A program made the translations under genes and the position numbers. From NCBI GenBank assembly GCA_023664305.1, contig JAMPFT010000001.1, forward strand, positions 270,856 to 334,855: 64,000 nucleotides of DNA, in the 5' to 3' direction. The first letter of the stretch is position 1, and each line of letters starts with the position of its first letter. The DNA comes from a bacterium. Lineage in GTDB: Bacteria > Bacillota > Clostridia > Lachnospirales > Lachnospiraceae. Of the stretch, positions 55,357 to 63,884 are shown piece by piece. The notes under the pieces are model-generated. The model saw nothing but the letters and a program-made list of their open reading frames with translations. It was not told the origin of the DNA and did not search any database.

Positions 55357-55992
55357 TCAGGCGGGCGTAAACGCCGCCTCATACCGTTTTGCCGCCTTGC
55401 GCCAGTTAATCAGTCCAAACCACCCTTCCACATATTCGGCGCGCCTGTTCTGATACTGCAGATAATAGGCATGCTCCCATACGTCCACCAAAAGGACCGG
55501 CGTATATTCCTTCCGGTTCGGCACATCCTGATTCGCCGTCTGCAGGATGGACAGCCTGCCGCCCGGATCCGCCGCAAGCCAGGCCCAGCCGGAGCCGAAT
55601 GTGCCGACCGCCGCCTGCTTCATCTGTTCCTTCCACTGCTTGCAGGATCCGAAATCCCTGACGATGGCCTCCGCCAAAGCCCCTTCCGGCTCCTGACCCG
55701 CCGGGCTCCTCATCGAGTCGAAATACAGCTCGTGATTGTAAACCCCGCCGCCGTTATTGCGAACCGCCGTGCGAATCTGCGCGGGCAGGGAATCGATCCT
55801 GCCAAGAAGCTCCTCCAGACCAAGCCGCTGAAGCTCCGGATAGTCCGACAGCGCGCTGTTCAGATTATCGACATAGGTTTTGTAATGCCTGTCATGATGA
55901 AAATGCATCGTTTCCTCATTCAACACGGGGACAAGTGCATCGTACTCATAAGGCAGGGGCCGTACAACAAATGGATAGGTTTCCGCTTTCAT
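55357..55992 (-). CDS. sodA: Superoxide dismutase (Fe/Mn family)
   Basis: 211 residues. Metal ligands are visible: His in MHFHHDRHYKTYV, His in YNHELYF, Asp and His in DVWEHAYY. The GGGVYNH and TANQD patterns fit the manganese or cambialistic type more than iron. It removes superoxide, useful for an anaerobe exposed to oxygen. The ATG at 55992 has AGGAG 5 nt upstream. No export signal. Confidence 0.94.
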   Translation of the reverse strand: MKAETYPFVVRPLPYEYDALVPVLNEETMHFHHDRHYKTYVDNLNSALSDYPELQRLGLEELLGRIDSLPAQIRTAVRNNGGGVYNHELYFDSMRSPAGQEPEGALAEAIVRDFGSCKQWKEQMKQAAVGTFGSGWAWLAADPGGRLSILQTANQDVPNRKEYTPVLLVDVWEHAYYLQYQNRRAEYVEGWFGLINWRKAAKRYEAAFTPA

Positions 55993-56045
55993 AATCACTC
56001 CTGTCCGCGCACGCAGCTCATCCGCCGTATGCGCTTTTTTTTACA

Positions 56046-56160: not shown

Positions 56161-56742
56161 TCAGTCCAGCACGGTTGTGAGGTATTCGACAGAGACAATG
56201 CTGTCGCCCTGCAGGATAAAGCAAAGCTTCATGCCGTCCTTCGCATACACGACCTTGCCGTTCTCCTCGGCGCTGTCCGTCCCGTATGTCTCCTCCATTT
56301 TGGATCTGCTGTCGCCGATGGCTACTCCCTCCGGGGTGGCAACGGAATCATCCTTAAAAATCACCGCGGAAATGTAATCCTCCCCGTCCTGCGGATAGGT
56401 GTCGATCTCATAGCTGTTGTAGGTATAGATCTTATCCAGTCCCTCGAAGGCGCAGCTCGTCGATTCGAAATAAGCGGGGGAACCCCCGATCGCTTCGATC
56501 ACCGGCGCCGCAGGAGCGTCTATCTGTACCGTCACGCCGTTTGGCGTCACAAAATAATAGCCCGCCGTCTGATTTGCCGCAGAGGATCCGCCTCCGCCCG
56601 GATTGCCGCTCTCGTTTCCGTCCTGCTGTCCCGTTCCCGCGGAGCTGTTGTTCACATCGCCCGGGATCACTTTTTCACTGTTTCCGCACCCGGCTGTCAG
56701 CAGCATCGCCGCCAGCACAAGCACCAGTCCTCTTTTTTTCAT
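56161..56742 (-). CDS. Lipoprotein, 193 aa
   Basis: The signal peptide ends at Cys19 (LLTAGC). A Gly/Asn/Ser linker follows, then a compact domain from about residue 55 with GYYFVTPNGVTVQIDAPAAP and GVAIGDSRSKMEETYG. The family is not recognised. It is separated from the Dlt-like operon by a terminator but points the same way, so read-through expression is possible. Function unknown. Confidence 0.8.
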   Translation of the reverse strand: MKKRGLVLVLAAMLLTAGCGNSEKVIPGDVNNSSAGTGQQDGNESGNPGGGGSSAANQTAGYYFVTPNGVTVQIDAPAAPVIEAIGGSPAYFESTSCAFEGLDKIYTYNSYEIDTYPQDGEDYISAVIFKDDSVATPEGVAIGDSRSKMEETYGTDSAEENGKVVYAKDGMKLCFILQGDSIVSVEYLTTVLD

Positions 56743-56795
56743 CATACACCTCATTTCTGCGCCGCTCTCCCAACCCGGCCCTGCCGGATCCGTAT

Positions 56796-56832
56796 AAAAA
56801 GCCCTGCGCCAAACGGCGCGCAGACACAGGGC
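56796..56832 (-). terminator. Terminator of the Dlt-like operon
   Basis: On the minus strand GCCCT/AGGGC with a nested GCGCC/GGCGC hairpin is followed by TTTTT, about 70 bp after the SGNH gene stop. Confidence 0.7.
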
Positions 56833-56901
56833 ACGCTTTCCAAAGCTTCTTTTATTCCGTCCGTTTTCCTGTCCTCGATCCCGGCTTTTTGCAAACCGTC
56901 T

Positions 56902-57948
56902 CTACTGCCCCGCGGCCTGCTCCAGCGCGCGGTATTGCTCCTCTCTGTCGCGCCTGTATTCCCGGCCCTTTTCTTCCCAGCGCTCTGCAAGAGACGCCTC
57001 TCCGCGCCTGTCCTTCAGTCCGCACTGCTCCCTTAAGAAACCGCCGAGATACCGGCTGACCTTCTCCGCCCCGGACAGATTCAGGTGAAGCCCGCCGTCA
57101 TAGGTATCCGTGGAGAAGTCCAGCCCGGTCTCCTCCGTCAGCTCCAGAAAATCAAGGTACAAAAGCCCCTTTTCTTCCGCAAACGCCTCCACCTGCTCCT
57201 CCCACTCCGGATACCAGTAAGGGTACAGGCTGGGCGCCTTGATCAGCACAAGCTCAATTCCGTTCTCCCTGCAGAGAGACTCCATCTTCTCCAGATATCC
57301 CACGGCGTTATCCCCGAAATCATAATCCGCCAGCACCCTGCCGTCCGGCACGTTTTCCGCCGGCTTTACGTCCACTCTCATATAGTAGCCGTTATGGGAT
57401 ACCTTTCTCGTCTGAAACAGATACGTCACGTCCGCCTTCGACAGTTCGCTCCATCTGGAATGATACCGCAGAATCGGAAACACATAGTCCAGAAAGCTTT
57501 CTTCCTCCGTCATGGACGCCAGAATCGCCCCTGCCTTTGCCTTCGACCACTTCATGCCCTCCAGCGTCATCCGGTTATAGGCCTCCTTCTGGGGCTCGTT
57601 ATATTTTAACGACAAAACGTTAAAAATCACAACCTCCGGCTTTTCGTACCGCAGCGTGTCCTCCAGAAGATAATAGGACTGCCAGATCAACTGCTGGGCG
57701 CTCCCCCTGATATAGCTGTTGATCCCGTATTCCTCCCAGAGCACCTGAGGCGAAAAATTTTCATACACCTCGCAGTCTCCGATAAACACCACGTCATGAT
57801 CCTTTTCCTCGTCATAGTACTCCGCAATCAGCGCGCCCTCTATCACGTTTTCCGTATATTTGGGGATCAGAAGCCTCTGCAGCAAAAACAGGCTTCCCGC
57901 GATAACCGCCGCGGACACGATCCCTCTGACCACCGCTTTCTTTTTCAT
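56902..57948 (-). CDS. DltD-like SGNH membrane protein with Cys in the nucleophile block
   Basis: About 348 residues. One N-terminal membrane span (about 8-26) is followed by an extracellular SGNH-type domain. Block I reads FIGDCEVYENFSP, with Cys59 where GDS-type enzymes have Ser; the C-terminal DGGLHLNLSGAEK carries the Asp/His pair. It is the last gene after the MBOAT gene, the place of DltD, which hands D-alanyl groups to teichoic acid. The start MKKKAVV has GGGAG 5 nt upstream. Either Cys acts as nucleophile or the site is not catalytic. Confidence 0.82.
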   Translation of the reverse strand: MKKKAVVRGIVSAAVIAGSLFLLQRLLIPKYTENVIEGALIAEYYDEEKDHDVVFIGDCEVYENFSPQVLWEEYGINSYIRGSAQQLIWQSYYLLEDTLRYEKPEVVIFNVLSLKYNEPQKEAYNRMTLEGMKWSKAKAGAILASMTEEESFLDYVFPILRYHSRWSELSKADVTYLFQTRKVSHNGYYMRVDVKPAENVPDGRVLADYDFGDNAVGYLEKMESLCRENGIELVLIKAPSLYPYWYPEWEEQVEAFAEEKGLLYLDFLELTEETGLDFSTDTYDGGLHLNLSGAEKVSRYLGGFLREQCGLKDRRGEASLAERWEEKGREYRRDREEQYRALEQAAGQ

Positions 57949-57969
57949 TTCAACTCCCATTCATCCGCG

Positions 57970-59562
57970 CTAAAACTGATTATAGATAAACTGGCTGGCG
58001 TCATAGCCTACGCCGTAGGCTCCCAACAGAAGCGTAGCCAAAAACAGCCCGTACCACACCGCAAATTTAAGCCAGTACGGCTTCGCAGCAATCTTCTCCC
58101 GCACGCTTCCCGATCTCTGCCACAGGCTGACCGCAATAAGCAGCGCCACTCCCGCCGCCAACACCGCAAAATCCAGGGCCGTCAGCCCTAAGGTAAGCAG
58201 CGAGCCGTCCCAGAGAATGTGCCAGTTAAAATTCGTAAACAGAGTGCCGAACATCCGAAAGGTCAGCGGCACATCCCGGTAACAGTCAAAGGTCCGCAGG
58301 GCGCTCATCAGCAAAACGGTCCGCACCACCTGAAACAGCCGGAAGAAAAATTTATCCCTGACCGCAAAACGTCTGTGAAAGCGCTCATACAAAGGCTCCA
58401 GCTCCTGGGAGATCATGATCACCGCCCAGTTTGCCAGCCCCCACACGATAAAATTCCAGCTGGCTCCGTGCCAGATTCCGGTGGCAAACCACACGGTAAA
58501 GGAGGAAAGATAAACCGGCATCCTTTTTCCGATTCTCTCCCCGAAATGCGCTCTGGAAAATCTGGAAAACTTTAACATGGGCTTGCAGACCGAAATGGGA
58601 TAAAAAATGTAATCCGTGAACCAGGAGCCCATGGTAATATGCCATCTGCGCCAATACTCCTTGATGGATTTTGAAAAATAGGGCCGGTTAAAGTTTTCCG
58701 TCACCCGAATCCCCAAGGCCTGGGCCACACCGATGGTGATATCGATTCCGCCCGTAAAATCCGCGTACAGCTCCAGCGCGTAAAACAGCATTCCCAGAAA
58801 CACATAAGCCCCGCCGTAGTTCTCCGGACTGCGGATAATCGTGTTGACGCCCACAAGCATCCTGTCCGCGATCACAAGCTTCTTAAAAAACCCCCAGAGG
58901 ACTCTCTGCAGCCCGAAGGAAAGAGTTTTCCCGTCAAAGGGATGCTCCTCGAACAGGCTCTGCGCCAGATCTCCGAAGCGGCTGATCGGCCCCTGGATCA
59001 GCTGGGGAAAAAAGGAGACGAACAGCGCGAGCCGAAAGGGATTTTTCTCCGCCGGGACCACCCCGCGGTACACGTCGATCAGATACCCCATGGCCTGAAA
59101 GGTGAAAAACGAGATCCCCATAGGCAGCGCGATATTCCAGAAATCAAGGGTCCTGCCGCTTCCTGCCGCACGAAATACGGCGTTCAGGTTGCCGATGACA
59201 AAATTGGTATATTTTACCACCGCCAGCACGCCGATGTTAAACAAAAGACAGCTTAACAGACAGAGCCACTGTCTGTGCTTCATTTTCGCCTTATAGGCTT
59301 TCTTCGCCTCTTTATCCAGCTCCTCCTTATGCTCTTTCAGATATTCCTTCTGCCGTTCTCCGATCAGGGCAATCCCGCGCCCCGCCAGATAAGTGGTCAC
59401 GGTCGTCCCCAGAATATAGATCAGATTGGACGGCCCCGTGAAAAAATAAAAGAAATAGCTTGCGGCAAGCAAAAGTCCCCACTGGAAGCGCTTCGGTATC
59501 AGATAATACAACACCAGCAGAACCGCCAGAAAGCCCAAAAATTCATACGATGTGAACAGCAT
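57970..59562 (-). CDS. MBOAT acyltransferase (DltB/AlgI-like)
   Basis: 530 residues with about ten membrane spans. The family motif WRRWHITMGSWFTDYIFYP and the catalytic His near residue 364 (GIWHGASWNF) are present. DltB-type proteins move an acyl or aminoacyl group from a carrier protein across the membrane. It starts 5 bp after the carrier protein stop, as in dlt operons. The cytoplasmic loop near 70-95 is unusually charged. Confidence 0.92.
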   Translation of the reverse strand: MLFTSYEFLGFLAVLLVLYYLIPKRFQWGLLLAASYFFYFFTGPSNLIYILGTTVTTYLAGRGIALIGERQKEYLKEHKEELDKEAKKAYKAKMKHRQWLCLLSCLLFNIGVLAVVKYTNFVIGNLNAVFRAAGSGRTLDFWNIALPMGISFFTFQAMGYLIDVYRGVVPAEKNPFRLALFVSFFPQLIQGPISRFGDLAQSLFEEHPFDGKTLSFGLQRVLWGFFKKLVIADRMLVGVNTIIRSPENYGGAYVFLGMLFYALELYADFTGGIDITIGVAQALGIRVTENFNRPYFSKSIKEYWRRWHITMGSWFTDYIFYPISVCKPMLKFSRFSRAHFGERIGKRMPVYLSSFTVWFATGIWHGASWNFIVWGLANWAVIMISQELEPLYERFHRRFAVRDKFFFRLFQVVRTVLLMSALRTFDCYRDVPLTFRMFGTLFTNFNWHILWDGSLLTLGLTALDFAVLAAGVALLIAVSLWQRSGSVREKIAAKPYWLKFAVWYGLFLATLLLGAYGVGYDASQFIYNQF

Positions 59563-59567
59563 GTCTG

Positions 59568-59798
59568 TCAGTCCTCATCTTCCAGTTCCCGGATCAGGCT
59601 CCAGATCGCCTCCGCCGAATTAAAATTCTCCGGCACAATCTTCTCCGCGGAGATCGTCACATCAAAGCGCTCTCCGATCTCGGCGATGACGGAGACGATG
59701 TCAAAAGAATCCAGTATCCCGGCATCGATCAGATTGTCGCAGTTTTCAAAATCCACCTCCGGATGAAGATCCCTCAAAATTTCCAGTAATTCTTCCAT
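59568..59798 (-). CDS. Acyl/aminoacyl carrier protein (DltC-like)
   Basis: 76 residues, acidic. The phosphopantetheine site is Ser31 in LDSFDIVS, with the carrier-protein helices around it. It lies between the adenylation enzyme and the MBOAT, the position of DltC, and would carry the activated amino acid as a thioester. AAGGAAGG precedes the ATG. Confidence 0.92.
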   Translation of the reverse strand: MEELLEILRDLHPEVDFENCDNLIDAGILDSFDIVSVIAEIGERFDVTISAEKIVPENFNSAEAIWSLIRELEDED

Positions 59799-59820
59799 AC
59801 CTGATAACCCTTCCTTTCTC

Positions 59821-61341
59821 TTATGCGTGATTCTGCCCCTGATAAGCAGCCTTCAGGGCGTTTCTGTCTATTTTCCCGTTTGCGGTAAAAAGCATTTCCT
59901 CCAGCCGGATAATGCCGTTGGGAATCATATAGCGCGGCAGCCTGCCTTTCAGGAGCCCCGCAAGCTCCCCCTCTTCCACATCCCCCACATAATACAGCAC
60001 AATCCTGTTTTTCCTGTCGTCGTAGATGCAGGCGGCAATCTTTACCCCGTCCATGAGACTGACGTTTGCCTCGATCTCCCCCAACTCGATCCTGTGGCCC
60101 ATATGCTTGATCTGATAGTCTTTTCTGGATACAAAGACCAGCTCCCCGCGCTCGTTGTACCTCCCCAGATCCCCGGTCCGGTAAATCAGCTCAGGGTACG
60201 AGGTGTTCAGCGGGTTCTGCACAAATACCTCGCCTGTTTTCTCAAAATTATTGTAATAACCGAGAGTCACGGAGGTGCCGCGGATACAGATTTCGCCGAC
60301 CTCCCCCTCTTTGGCCCTTCTGTTTTCCTCTGTCAACAGAAGGATCTCCGTATTTTTAAAGGGCCGTCCGACGGGAATGGCCTCCGTCTCCTCAAAATCA
60401 CGCTCCACCCTGTAAAAGCAGCACATCCCCGTACCCTCGGTGGGGCCGTACAGATTCGTGAAATCCGCCTCCGGCAGAGTCTCCCGCCAGATCCTGAACT
60501 GTTTGATGGGAAAGACCTCGCTTCCGAAGGCGACGGTTTTTAAAGTTTTGGGCGTCACCGTCCGGAAGGTTCCGAAGGCCGAGATCATGGTCAGGGCCGA
60601 TACCACCCAGCAGATCGTATTGATCCGATGCTCGTTTAAATACTCCACCAGCTTCACCGGAAACATAAAAAGGCTCCGGGGAATCAGGTAAGTGGTGGCA
60701 CCGAATTTTAAGGTGGGATACAGCTCCTTTAAGCAGGCGTCGAAGTACAGCGGGGTCTGATTGCCGAAGACCGTGTTTTCGTCAAAGCCCAGCGTCTCCG
60801 ACAGCTGCTCGATGTAGTCGATCACCGACCGGTGGCAGGCCGCCACCCCCTTCGGCACTCCGGTAGAGCCCGAGGTAAACACAATGTAGATCGGATCCGT
60901 ATCGATCGCGCGGTCATAAATATCCTGCAGGGCCTCACCGTTTACCGGCGTCTCCGATATGACGTCATACCGTACAATTTCACCCGAAAAATCAAGCTCC
61001 CTCGCCAGCGCCTCCGTCCGGCTGTCACAGATAATCAACGGCGTCTGCACATTCTTTAAGATCAGGTCAATCCGAAACCGCGGCATTTCCTCGTCGATCG
61101 GCACATAAAAGCAGCCTCCCGCAATCACGCCGAAGAAAGCCGCTATCTCTTTGGGGTGCTTTTCCATAAACACCACCACGGGCTGCCTGTATATGCCCTT
61201 TTCGTGGAGAAAGCTTCCCACCGCCCTGCTTTGGTCGTGGACCTGGCGGAAGGTGAGCGTCTCGCTGTCGTCGGCAAAAGCCGTCTTGTCCGGCTTTACC
61301 GTCACAATATGATTCAGATAGTCCAAAACATGATTCTGCAT
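59821..61341 (-). CDS. DltA-like amino acid adenylation enzyme
   Basis: 506 residues, stand-alone adenylation domain. Core motifs run in order: FTSGSTGVPKG (A3), LYFDACLKELYPTL (A4), NLYGPTEGTG (A5), YRTGDLGRYN (A7), KHMGHRIELGEIE (A8) and NGKIDRNAL (A10 with the catalytic Lys). In DltA the residue before the Gly-Glu of the FCGEVLP loop is Cys; here the matching loop is FGSEVFP. WVVSALTM also replaces the usual WxSTPSF. The substrate may therefore not be D-alanine. The start MQNHVL has GGAG 6 nt upstream. Confidence 0.9.
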   Translation of the reverse strand: MQNHVLDYLNHIVTVKPDKTAFADDSETLTFRQVHDQSRAVGSFLHEKGIYRQPVVVFMEKHPKEIAAFFGVIAGGCFYVPIDEEMPRFRIDLILKNVQTPLIICDSRTEALARELDFSGEIVRYDVISETPVNGEALQDIYDRAIDTDPIYIVFTSGSTGVPKGVAACHRSVIDYIEQLSETLGFDENTVFGNQTPLYFDACLKELYPTLKFGATTYLIPRSLFMFPVKLVEYLNEHRINTICWVVSALTMISAFGTFRTVTPKTLKTVAFGSEVFPIKQFRIWRETLPEADFTNLYGPTEGTGMCCFYRVERDFEETEAIPVGRPFKNTEILLLTEENRRAKEGEVGEICIRGTSVTLGYYNNFEKTGEVFVQNPLNTSYPELIYRTGDLGRYNERGELVFVSRKDYQIKHMGHRIELGEIEANVSLMDGVKIAACIYDDRKNRIVLYYVGDVEEGELAGLLKGRLPRYMIPNGIIRLEEMLFTANGKIDRNALKAAYQGQNHA

Positions 61342-61403
61342 TTTACACTCCATGCCGCCTCAGGCGGACACTCATTTCAAAGTCCAAAAAGTTTAAGTCT
61401 CTG

Positions 61404-62114
61404 TCAGATCAGCTCCCGGTATTCCTCCTTCAGGCTGCCGCAGGACAGCACCGCCCGACGCGCCAAAACCTCCATCACATCCAGATACCCGGCTCCTATC
61501 GGGAAATCCCGCTTGATCAGGGACAGCTCCGTACAGGCGAGAAGGATCACCTCGGCTCCCTTTCGGGACAGCTCCCCGGACGCCTGCTCAAACAGCGGCA
61601 GTTCGATCTCTCTGCCCGCCTTGACGTCGTCATAGATCAGATGCATGACTTTTCTTTGGGCTTCCTCCCCCGGGATCACCGCCTCGACGCCGTATTCCTG
61701 CAGCTTTTTCTGGAACAGTCCGCTTTCTATCGTACCGTCCGTAGCCAGGATTCCCGCCCGTGCGACGTTCCGTCCGCTCAAATACGCCGCCGTCTCCTCC
61801 ACGGCGTTGATCACCGGGACGCCGACGGCCTCCTCCAGCTGCCCCTGAAAATAATGGGCGGTGATACAGGGCACGGCAATGATCTGCGCCCCCTGCTCTG
61901 CCAGTCCCCTCCCGGTCTCGATCAGATCAGGCAGCGGACTTTTTTTGCTCTTTCCCAGAATATATGCTGTTCTGTCCGGAATCTGAGGTCTGCTGTGGAG
62001 CAGCACCTCCAGATGCTGCTGATCCGTTTCAGCCCGCGTCATGTCGGTCACAAGCCGGAGAAAATACGCGGTAGCCATGGGCCCCAGTCCGCCAATCACA
62101 CCTAATTTTTTCAT
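61404..62114 (-). CDS. Aspartate/glutamate-family amino acid racemase
   Basis: 236 residues. The two catalytic cysteines of cofactor-independent racemases are present: Cys83 (AVPCITAH) and Cys194 (LLACTELSL), with IGGLGPMAT at the start. The spacing matches aspartate racemase. The usual PCNT reads PCIT. Its place between the Ig-like protein and the adenylation enzyme suggests it makes the D-amino acid used by the operon. AGGGGTG precedes the ATG. Confidence 0.9.
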   Translation of the reverse strand: MKKLGVIGGLGPMATAYFLRLVTDMTRAETDQQHLEVLLHSRPQIPDRTAYILGKSKKSPLPDLIETGRGLAEQGAQIIAVPCITAHYFQGQLEEAVGVPVINAVEETAAYLSGRNVARAGILATDGTIESGLFQKKLQEYGVEAVIPGEEAQRKVMHLIYDDVKAGREIELPLFEQASGELSRKGAEVILLACTELSLIKRDFPIGAGYLDVMEVLARRAVLSCGSLKEEYRELI

Positions 62115-62166
62115 CGGTACACCCCTGTCCGCCTTATCGGGACCGAAAGCCTGCCTGTCCGGAGCA

Positions 62167-63795
62167 TCAGTTTACCTCCGGATAAGCCGAGTGGTCATAA
62201 TTATGTGAATCGGAGTGATTTGCGGAATACTCCATCATCTGCTCGTCCGTCCACATGAAGATCGTAGGATGGTCCTTCCGGGGCGTCGTGTCAAAATGAT
62301 ACCAGCCGTCTCCCACATCCACCAGATTCCAGTAATGACTGGTCTTCGCCGGGATCTTCTCGATATCCATGTTTGTGATACCCGCCCTGGTCAAAAGCTC
62401 CTTTGACGTGCTTGCGAAGACATAACAGTCGCCCTGGCCTTCCGCCAGTCCCTCGTAAGCCGCCCGGAGCCAGTCTCCCTTCTCGGAATGGCTGATATAT
62501 CCCACATGCCCCCTGATATAAGTAAAGATAGCCTGCACCTTTTCCATCGGCGTCATGTTATCTGTAATGATCTTTGCCAGCACGGCATCCGCCAGCGCGT
62601 CCACCGTCTCCTGGGAATACATGCTTTCCAGAATCGTGACCGTGACAGATGCTTCCGTCACATTCCCCGCGTAATCCGTGGCACGGTAAGTCACAGGATA
62701 GCTTCCTGCGGCGTTGGGATTCACCTGGCTGTTGTCGATCTCCAGATTCAGTCCCTCCGGACAGTTATCCACAACCTCCACATTCTTGCGGTATGCTATG
62801 GTATTGCCCAGATAAATCGTGATATCCTTCACTCCGATAAGCTGCGGCGGCTCCGTATCCGCCTGAAGCGTCAGCGTAGCCTGTCCCACCGTCTCGTTGC
62901 CGCCCTGATCCCTTGCCACAACGGACACCTGCTGCGCTCCCGTAAGCGTCAGATCCGGCTCCTGCAGAAAAGAAACCGTCACCTCCGTCCTGTCTTTTGT
63001 CTCCACGACGAACTCTTCCGCCGTTCTGGGGACCAGCGTAAACCCGGACACATCCCTTAGCACAAGCTGCGGCGGAACCGTATCCGCCACCTGCAGGGTG
63101 GAATGATACTCTTCCCCGTCCACCCGGAGAATCACATCATACTCGGCCACATCGCTTAAATCCAGCTCCGCCAGATTGGTCAGAAGCTGCGCGTCCACGT
63201 CTCCGATCAGAAAAGCCTCAATACCGGGAGACGTTCCCCCCACTTCGCAGACCACCCTCGTACGCACGGGCACTACATGAAGCTCCGTCTCCAGCACGAC
63301 GCTGTTCTTCCCTTTGTCCGTCAAGCGCAGCTTCACCGGACAGGAGCCGGGGTGACTGATGTCCGGCAGCTCTGCAAAGGTCACCGTCACCTCTGTGGCG
63401 TCCCGGACCTCCTCCACAAAATCAGGCGCAGAACAGGTCTTGCCGTACTCCAGCTCCAACACCCGAAGCGTCGCCTCCGGCGGAATCGTATCCTCGATGT
63501 AAAGCGTTGACGTATGCGTGAACCATCCGCTTTTGACCCTGATTCGGTATTCGCCGGGCTCATTGACGGAAAAAGAATCGCTGTCCGGCGTAAAGTACGC
63601 ATTCTCATCCTCCTGCTTCAGAAAATCGGACGGCTTTACCTCTACGCCCGCTTCCACACGGCACACCTTATAAGCCAGACTGTCTACATACAGATATCCG
63701 CCTGCCGCAGCCGCAAGCAAAACTACCGCAAGCCACAGCAGACCGCCCTTTTTCTTTCTTCTTTTCTTTCGCTTCTTCATAACTGCCTTACTCAT
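62167..63795 (-). CDS. Membrane-anchored Ig-like / transglutaminase-like protein
   Basis: About 542 residues. A very basic N-terminus (KKRKKRRKKK) leads into one membrane span. About four Ig-like/HYR-type beta domains follow (repeated DTVPPQL, DTEPPQL and VTVTILE edges). The C-terminal transglutaminase-like domain has Cys near 452 (GQGDCYVFAS), His near 486 (SHYWNLVDVG) and Asp near 501 (YHFDTTP). The fold may cleave or link peptides outside the cell. First gene of the operon; the start is set at MSKAVMKK after GGGGTG. Confidence 0.87.
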   Translation of the reverse strand: MSKAVMKKRKKRRKKKGGLLWLAVVLLAAAAGGYLYVDSLAYKVCRVEAGVEVKPSDFLKQEDENAYFTPDSDSFSVNEPGEYRIRVKSGWFTHTSTLYIEDTIPPEATLRVLELEYGKTCSAPDFVEEVRDATEVTVTFAELPDISHPGSCPVKLRLTDKGKNSVVLETELHVVPVRTRVVCEVGGTSPGIEAFLIGDVDAQLLTNLAELDLSDVAEYDVILRVDGEEYHSTLQVADTVPPQLVLRDVSGFTLVPRTAEEFVVETKDRTEVTVSFLQEPDLTLTGAQQVSVVARDQGGNETVGQATLTLQADTEPPQLIGVKDITIYLGNTIAYRKNVEVVDNCPEGLNLEIDNSQVNPNAAGSYPVTYRATDYAGNVTEASVTVTILESMYSQETVDALADAVLAKIITDNMTPMEKVQAIFTYIRGHVGYISHSEKGDWLRAAYEGLAEGQGDCYVFASTSKELLTRAGITNMDIEKIPAKTSHYWNLVDVGDGWYHFDTTPRKDHPTIFMWTDEQMMEYSANHSDSHNYDHSAYPEVN

Positions 63796-63855
63796 TCCCA
63801 CACCCCATGCCCATTTCGTTTTTCTTCAGATCGGGCCGGATAAATACCATTCCCT

Positions 63856-63884
63856 ATTTTAAGTCGTTTTTACTCAATTGTCAA
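63856..63884 (-). promoter_or_regulatory. Promoter of the Dlt-like operon
   Basis: Perfect TTGACA, 17 bp, TAAAAT on the minus strand, about 60 bp before the first start codon. Confidence 0.85.

Follow-up and report, generated by a model that had tools for sequence, protein, structure and literature searches.

A stretch of 64,000 nucleotides from a Lachnospiraceae genome of 3.58 Mb in 44 contigs (assembly GCA_023664305.1, contig JAMPFT010000001.1, positions 270,856 to 334,855 of the forward strand; here called the window) carries a Dlt-like operon in which an amino acid racemase gene precedes the gene of an adenylation enzyme. Comparison of this operon with its relatives indicates that many gut Clostridia possess a conserved set of seven genes, whose probable role is to attach an acidic D-amino acid to the cell surface. 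We consider it reasonably likely that the set encodes a dedicated system that makes such an amino acid, which would most likely be D-aspartate, and couples it to an acceptor that would lie in the cell envelope. The gene set, its linkage, the invariant residues and the pocket differences are read from sequence, and the SGNH fold of one component from a structure model.

The operon and the conserved gene set

The seven genes and the two putative transcription signals are located in the window as follows.

63856 to 63884, minus strand: promoter-like site TTGACA-17-TAAAAT, matching the consensus at 11 of 12 positions
62167 to 63801, minus strand: Ig-like and transglutaminase-like protein that has a hydrophobic stretch at its N-terminus (PF01841, PF16403)
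61404 to 62114, minus strand: aspartate-type racemase independent of pyridoxal phosphate, with a C83/C194 pair, R48 and K165 (PF01177)
59821 to 61353, minus strand: stand-alone amino acid adenylation enzyme of 510 amino acids (PF00501)
59568 to 59798, minus strand: carrier protein (PF00550)
57970 to 59562, minus strand: MBOAT acyltransferase with a C-terminal acyl-shuttle motif FIYNQF, H308 and H365 (PF03062)
56902 to 57960, minus strand: DltD-like SGNH protein with Cys63 (GDC) replacing the catalytic serine (structure model and fold searches)
56803 to 56824, minus strand: terminator-like hairpin followed by a T tract, 3′ of the SGNH gene
56161 to 56754, minus strand: small lipoprotein with lipobox C23 and invariant C101, the seventh member of the conserved set

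The original prediction described six closely spaced minus-strand genes, from the transglutaminase-like to the SGNH protein, bracketed by one TTGACA promoter and one terminator. Coordinates, strand and spacing confirm the six-gene operon, the intergenic gaps being 52, 50, 22, 5 and 9 bp in the 5′ to 3′ direction. The promoter-like site is indeed present at 63884-63856 and is the best of seven such sites in the region, a number that is unexceptional (4.5 expected, standard deviation 1.9); of 2000 random sequences simulated from the 179-base stretch, however, just one contained a site with at least 11 matches. Terminator-like sites are common in the region (16 against 8.0 expected, standard deviation 3.0). 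The bracketing holds in so far as both types of site are there, but the conserved unit runs past the terminator and includes the lipoprotein gene at 56754-56161, whose reading frame starts about 50 bases beyond the hairpin.

Relatives of the adenylation enzyme were collected in a scan of one genome per species, which returned 574 proteins; counts over 80 loci refer to the best 80 of these, of which 43 are named Lachnospiraceae. Residue counts pool the window, the best-80 loci and other retrieved loci (individual loci carry L numbers), using a coverage filter of 0.6 for all proteins except the transglutaminase-like protein and the lipoprotein. The pooled sequences, in that order, number 1+67+7 for the racemase, 1+73+16 for the carrier, 1+72+11 for the MBOAT protein, 1+67+0 for the SGNH protein, 1+71+8 for the transglutaminase-like protein and 1+67+1 for the lipoprotein. 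Copies of the window (L001, L003, L004) were left out, and the loci from the genus and the best-80 loci probably repeat some species. Alignment A1 contained the window and 45 of 52 related sequences, and alignment A2 the window and all 33.

A lipoprotein homolog occurs in 67 of the 80 loci; of the 53 with more than 5 kb on each side of the adenylation gene, 52 have it. The position of the gene varies: it may follow either the SGNH gene or the adenylation gene, or lie between the racemase and adenylation genes. By this recurrence the gene belongs to the conserved set, even if it may be transcribed separately in the window. Two tRNA genes lie upstream of the operon, together with open reading frames that by eye resemble argS and typA. 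Downstream, at window positions 55357-55998, an iron/manganese superoxide dismutase gene shares the strand of the operon.

Racemase and adenylation enzyme

The placement of a racemase gene directly before the adenylation gene, which was the starting point of the original prediction, is widely conserved. The racemase gene was present in the examined stretch at 67 of the 80 loci; in 57 it stood directly upstream of the adenylation gene on the same strand, with a distance between aligned ends of −9 to 149, and in 10 it stood elsewhere. Among 41 genomes of the genus, a racemase ortholog (at least 47% identity) was found in 10 of the 13 with an adenylation gene (at least 64% identity, two of them cut short) and in none of the 28 without one. 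The hypergeometric chance of this co-occurrence is 2.6e-7 if the genomes are treated as independent, which they are not. The three genomes with an adenylation gene and no racemase are 63, 70 and 80% complete. This conservation is strong evidence that the racemase is tied to the gene set. At eight loci (L035, L037, L043, L045, L063, L064, L066 and L099) the set is split into a carrier-MBOAT-SGNH block followed by a racemase-adenylation block, with about 2 to 4 kb between the SGNH and racemase genes; L063 comes from the cultured commensal Agathobacter ruminis JK623.

The racemase passes the aspartate racemase model TIGR00035 (210.8 bits, cut-off 93.1) and, by score, also the model NF052483 of the cysteate racemase CuyB (205.5 bits, cut-off 190). 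Its closest solved relative is the aspartate racemase 1jfl. The cysteine pair that had been proposed from the window is invariant: C83, C194 and R48 are found in 75 of 75 sequences including the window and K165 in 74, and they align with the cysteines, R48 and K164 of 1jfl. We take R48 and K164 of 1jfl to hold the side-chain carboxylate. The simplest product suggested by these features is D-aspartate, which is favored over D-glutamate because the closest solved relative is an aspartate racemase and the genome encodes a separate glutamate racemase (TIGR00067, 263.7 bits, cut-off 146.65).

The adenylation enzyme scores above the threshold of the model for amino acid adenylation domains (324.8 bits, cut-off 317.4) and does not reach the cut-off of the DltA model TIGR01734 (272.9 bits against 559.85). 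A nonribosomal peptide synthetase was considered and rejected, as only the AMP-binding domain was found in the 510-residue protein (E 0.001) and no condensation-domain module. In DltA of Bacillus cereus, Met200 and Cys268 line the pocket for the methyl group of D-alanine and Cys268 selects the D form, according to an excerpt of PMC8972799. The position of Met200 is occupied by a lysine (Lys209) in 80 of 80 loci and that of Cys268 by a glycine (Gly277) in 79. The only relative above the DltA cut-off in its search, L150, keeps both Met and Cys, and L151, which scores just below the cut-off, has Leu and Cys. The ten specificity positions of the window enzyme read D A K C V F L G M K. In a comparison of 108 sequences, 91 including the window share at least 64% identity, and among these the pocket lysine is present in 90 and replaced by arginine in one (L102 is not in this set); the 17 others carry other codes. 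Five more distant enzymes (L193-L197, 53-54% identity) retain the ten-letter code apart from a Val/Ile exchange. Furthermore, a tree of 40 adenylation sequences (39 chosen loci and the window) gives a support of 1.000 for the separation of the window clade, including L193-L198, from both canonical DltA and the remaining Dlt-like enzymes in the order. By these sequence comparisons the adenylation enzyme is not DltA, and the pocket lysine would suit an acidic side chain.

These findings bear on the possibility that the operon is a Dlt system of Clostridia whose substrate is still D-alanine, with the racemase serving another purpose or yielding a side product. The gene order and protein classes match dlt, and the DltA, DltB and DltC models all give hits. 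Moreover, DltA was found above its cut-off in none of 116 sampled genomes of the order, so that something else must perform D-alanylation there, if it occurs. Against this, the scores lie far below the DltA, DltB and DltC cut-offs, both D-alanine pocket residues are replaced, the tree sets the window clade apart from canonical DltA, and the racemase is linked to this gene set. We regard the D-alanine explanation as very unlikely; strict D-alanine specificity of the enzyme finds no support at the level of the pocket residues.

An alternative within the same scheme is that the amino acid is D-glutamate or D-cysteate instead of D-aspartate. Positions 235, 236 and 239 hold D, A and K, the residues that also open the glutamate code DAKDLGVVDK; the string DAKDLG occurs in the specificity-code literature. 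For D-cysteate, the score above the CuyB cut-off is in favor. Nevertheless, D-glutamate would already be supplied by the glutamate racemase of the same genome, cysteate is a less common metabolite, and the best solved relative of the racemase argues against both. This alternative is unlikely, and D-aspartate remains the preferred substrate.

Several observations weigh against a dedicated acidic D-amino acid system. The racemase was missing from the examined stretch at 13 of the 80 loci; four of these end at a contig edge and nine have upstream sequence. For these nine and the contig-edge locus L083 the racemase was sought genome-wide, L034 and L063 serving as positive controls. A homolog is present in nine of the ten genomes; the search of the L074 genome returned none. 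For L055, L108 and L083 the racemase gene adjoins a transglutaminase gene on another stretch of the genome, in the first two also beside further members of the set. The other six (L075, L076, L081, L091, L092 and L102) hold only a relative of 34-44% identity, which keeps R48, both cysteines and K165 and has no other gene of the set within the 6-11.5 kb fetched around it. Nor was a racemase found near L197 and L198. Concerning the pocket, L198 (45% identity) has Ile in place of the Met of the code and the genus ortholog L014 has Arg in place of the lysine. The ten-letter code equals no Asp or Glu code given in an excerpt of PMC12283262. The order has further Dlt-like adenylation enzymes with a lysine at this position (codes DSKDIF.. 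and DVKIVF..), and their fetched stretches contain no match to this racemase; lysine alone is thus no proof of an acidic substrate. Finally, the racemase itself passes the cysteate racemase cut-off.

Carrier, transferases and acceptor

The carrier gene is present in 73 of the 80 loci. Ser31 in the motif LDSF, which is likely the phosphopantetheine attachment site, is found in 90 of 90 sequences, and the protein misses the cut-offs of both DltC models (36.8 bits of 68 and 25.8 of 52.35). The MBOAT protein likewise falls short of the DltB model (142.2 bits, cut-off 375). H308 and H365 are conserved in 84 of 84 sequences, and all 73 full-length sequences carry a shuttle motif of the form FIYNQF, FIYNRF or FIYTQF. 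The operon gaps, which were the only places examined for it, leave no room for a separate DltX gene; DltX would be unneeded because the MBOAT protein has a proposed shuttle tyrosine of its own.

The SGNH protein gave a single Pfam match, to PF13472, which is below the cut-off (22.2 bits against 32.9), and no NCBIfam model matched at E 0.001. Fold searches with the structure model recovered an SGNH fold. Cys63 is present in 68 of 68 sequences including the window. In an order-wide comparison of 30 SGNH loci, all 24 with at least 46% identity (window included) have Cys, whereas all six at 30-34% identity have Ser. In three genomes (L167/L193, L169/L195 and L171) the conserved D285/H292 pair of the cysteine SGNH protein reads H285/D292, as though the acid and the histidine had been swapped. 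The original prediction did not include the lipoprotein gene, the shuttle motif fused to the MBOAT protein or the SGNH cysteine; with them the set is, as judged from its proteins, more than a Dlt operon plus a racemase.

The two remaining proteins may contact the acceptor. In the transglutaminase-like protein, C459, H489 and D504 are each invariant in 80 of 80 sequences and likely form a catalytic triad. The lipoprotein, modelled as two alpha-beta repeats, keeps C23 and C101 in 69 of 69 sequences.

The cysteine SGNH protein also occurs in other surroundings. A second module in the same genome (L191; G000:C42:128692-133289, L191:2693-7290) consists of a transglutaminase, an MBOAT protein with the motif FIYSRF, a cysteine SGNH protein and a lipoprotein. 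It comes immediately after a gene for an M15 (VanX-like) peptidase, and the fetched 14 kb contained no match to a racemase, an adenylation enzyme or a carrier. Including L191, ten fetched stretches have a cysteine SGNH gene with no adenylation gene in the examined range, the other nine (L199-L207) coming from 20 regions; the contigs are short in some cases, and for L199, L200 and L207 an adenylation enzyme is encoded at another place in the genome. Because the module also occurs with no adenylation gene nearby, the cysteine SGNH protein and its neighbors look like a core to which racemase, adenylation enzyme and carrier were added as a supply line.

The acceptor could be a protein or peptide, for example peptidoglycan stems or a surface protein, and not a glycopolymer, with the transglutaminase-like protein and the cysteine SGNH protein handling peptide amines. 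This possibility overlaps our preferred explanation in everything but the acceptor. The invariant C/H/D residues of the transglutaminase-like protein and the position of L191 behind a VanX-like peptidase gene speak for it. On the other hand, the MBOAT-SGNH pairs PatAB and Dlt, as described in an excerpt of PMC12148441, modify peptidoglycan sugars and teichoic acid, and we consider a peptide acceptor rather unlikely. The genome encodes one LtaS-like protein, which scores 90.3 bits against a cut-off of 970. A more speculative idea, which we think quite unlikely, is that the cysteine SGNH protein, through a thioester, would form an amide and not an ester. The acidic D-amino acid (D-aspartate) would then be fixed permanently to a surface polymer or peptide by way of that acceptor's amino groups, and the transglutaminase-like protein would share this acceptor. 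If this were true, the chemistry would be new among MBOAT-SGNH pairs and the surface decoration new among gut Clostridia, and the L191 module would work in the same way from an acyl-CoA donor.

Proposed pathway and relation to known systems

Returning to the attachment of D-aspartate to an envelope acceptor, we propose the following pathway. In the cytoplasm, the racemase would convert L-aspartate to D-aspartate. The adenylation enzyme would activate D-aspartate with ATP, Lys209 pairing with the side-chain carboxylate, and load it on the carrier. The aminoacyl group would then be moved through the membrane by the MBOAT protein, whose C-terminal FIYNQF motif would receive it on the tyrosine; the mechanism of the FXYXXF acyl-shuttle motif is described in an excerpt of PMC12148441. 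From there, we infer, Cys63 of the SGNH protein would take over the aminoacyl group as a thioester and hand it to the outside acceptor. The transglutaminase-like protein and the lipoprotein may act on this acceptor or position it. The suggestion of the original prediction that the system makes and attaches a D-amino acid is thus strengthened as regards the racemase linkage and a pocket unlike that for D-alanine, and an acidic D-amino acid appears the best reading of the substrate.

Like the Dlt system (DltABCD and DltX), the set combines a stand-alone adenylation enzyme, a carrier, an MBOAT protein and an SGNH partner in one operon, and both likely work by exporting an aminoacyl group to the surface. 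It differs from Dlt by its dedicated racemase, the replaced D-alanine pocket residues, the shuttle motif on the MBOAT protein itself, the exchange of the SGNH serine for cysteine, the additional transglutaminase-like and lipoprotein genes, and scores below the Dlt model cut-offs for adenylation enzyme, carrier and MBOAT protein. The PatA/PatB-type pathways, according to an excerpt of PMC12148441, share the FXYXXF motif at the MBOAT C-terminus and the SGNH partner, but they are carrier-free, use acyl-CoA and rely on a catalytic serine, whereas in the window set carrier and adenylation enzyme are both present and cysteine replaces the serine. The racemase belongs to the same family as 1jfl and CuyB, shares their cysteine pair and the positions R48 and K164/165, and differs from them in being tied to an envelope aminoacylation cluster. 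Our searches of the open-licence PMC literature brought up no description of a racemase-coupled MBOAT-SGNH set or of a cysteine SGNH partner, which is no proof of absence.

Other Dlt-like operons of the order (L213-L219) share a DltA-like adenylation enzyme and, in all but L218, a carrier match; L213-L215, L217 and L219 also have an MBOAT protein with an SGNH partner. They differ from the window in their pocket codes and in a serine SGNH protein (GSS or GDS) where one was found. The neighbors of the adenylation gene are different as well, with a LysA-like decarboxylase dependent on pyridoxal phosphate in L216 and L217 and a GNAT acetyltransferase in L214. Dedicated amino acid enzymes may be a general theme in such operons.

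In Gram-positive bacteria, decoration of the Dlt type determines the charge of the surface, resistance to peptides and recognition by the immune system. Unlike D-alanine, an acidic D-amino acid would add no net positive charge, so that the biological effect should differ. The set joins two mechanisms that have been described as separate, the carrier-fed Dlt pathway and the shuttle-fused PatA pathway. It also provides an example of a cysteine SGNH transferase that can be put to experimental test. Given the numerous relatives of the adenylation enzyme and the lack of DltA above its cut-off in the sampled genomes, the principal Dlt-like system in the order may be this one or its cousins.

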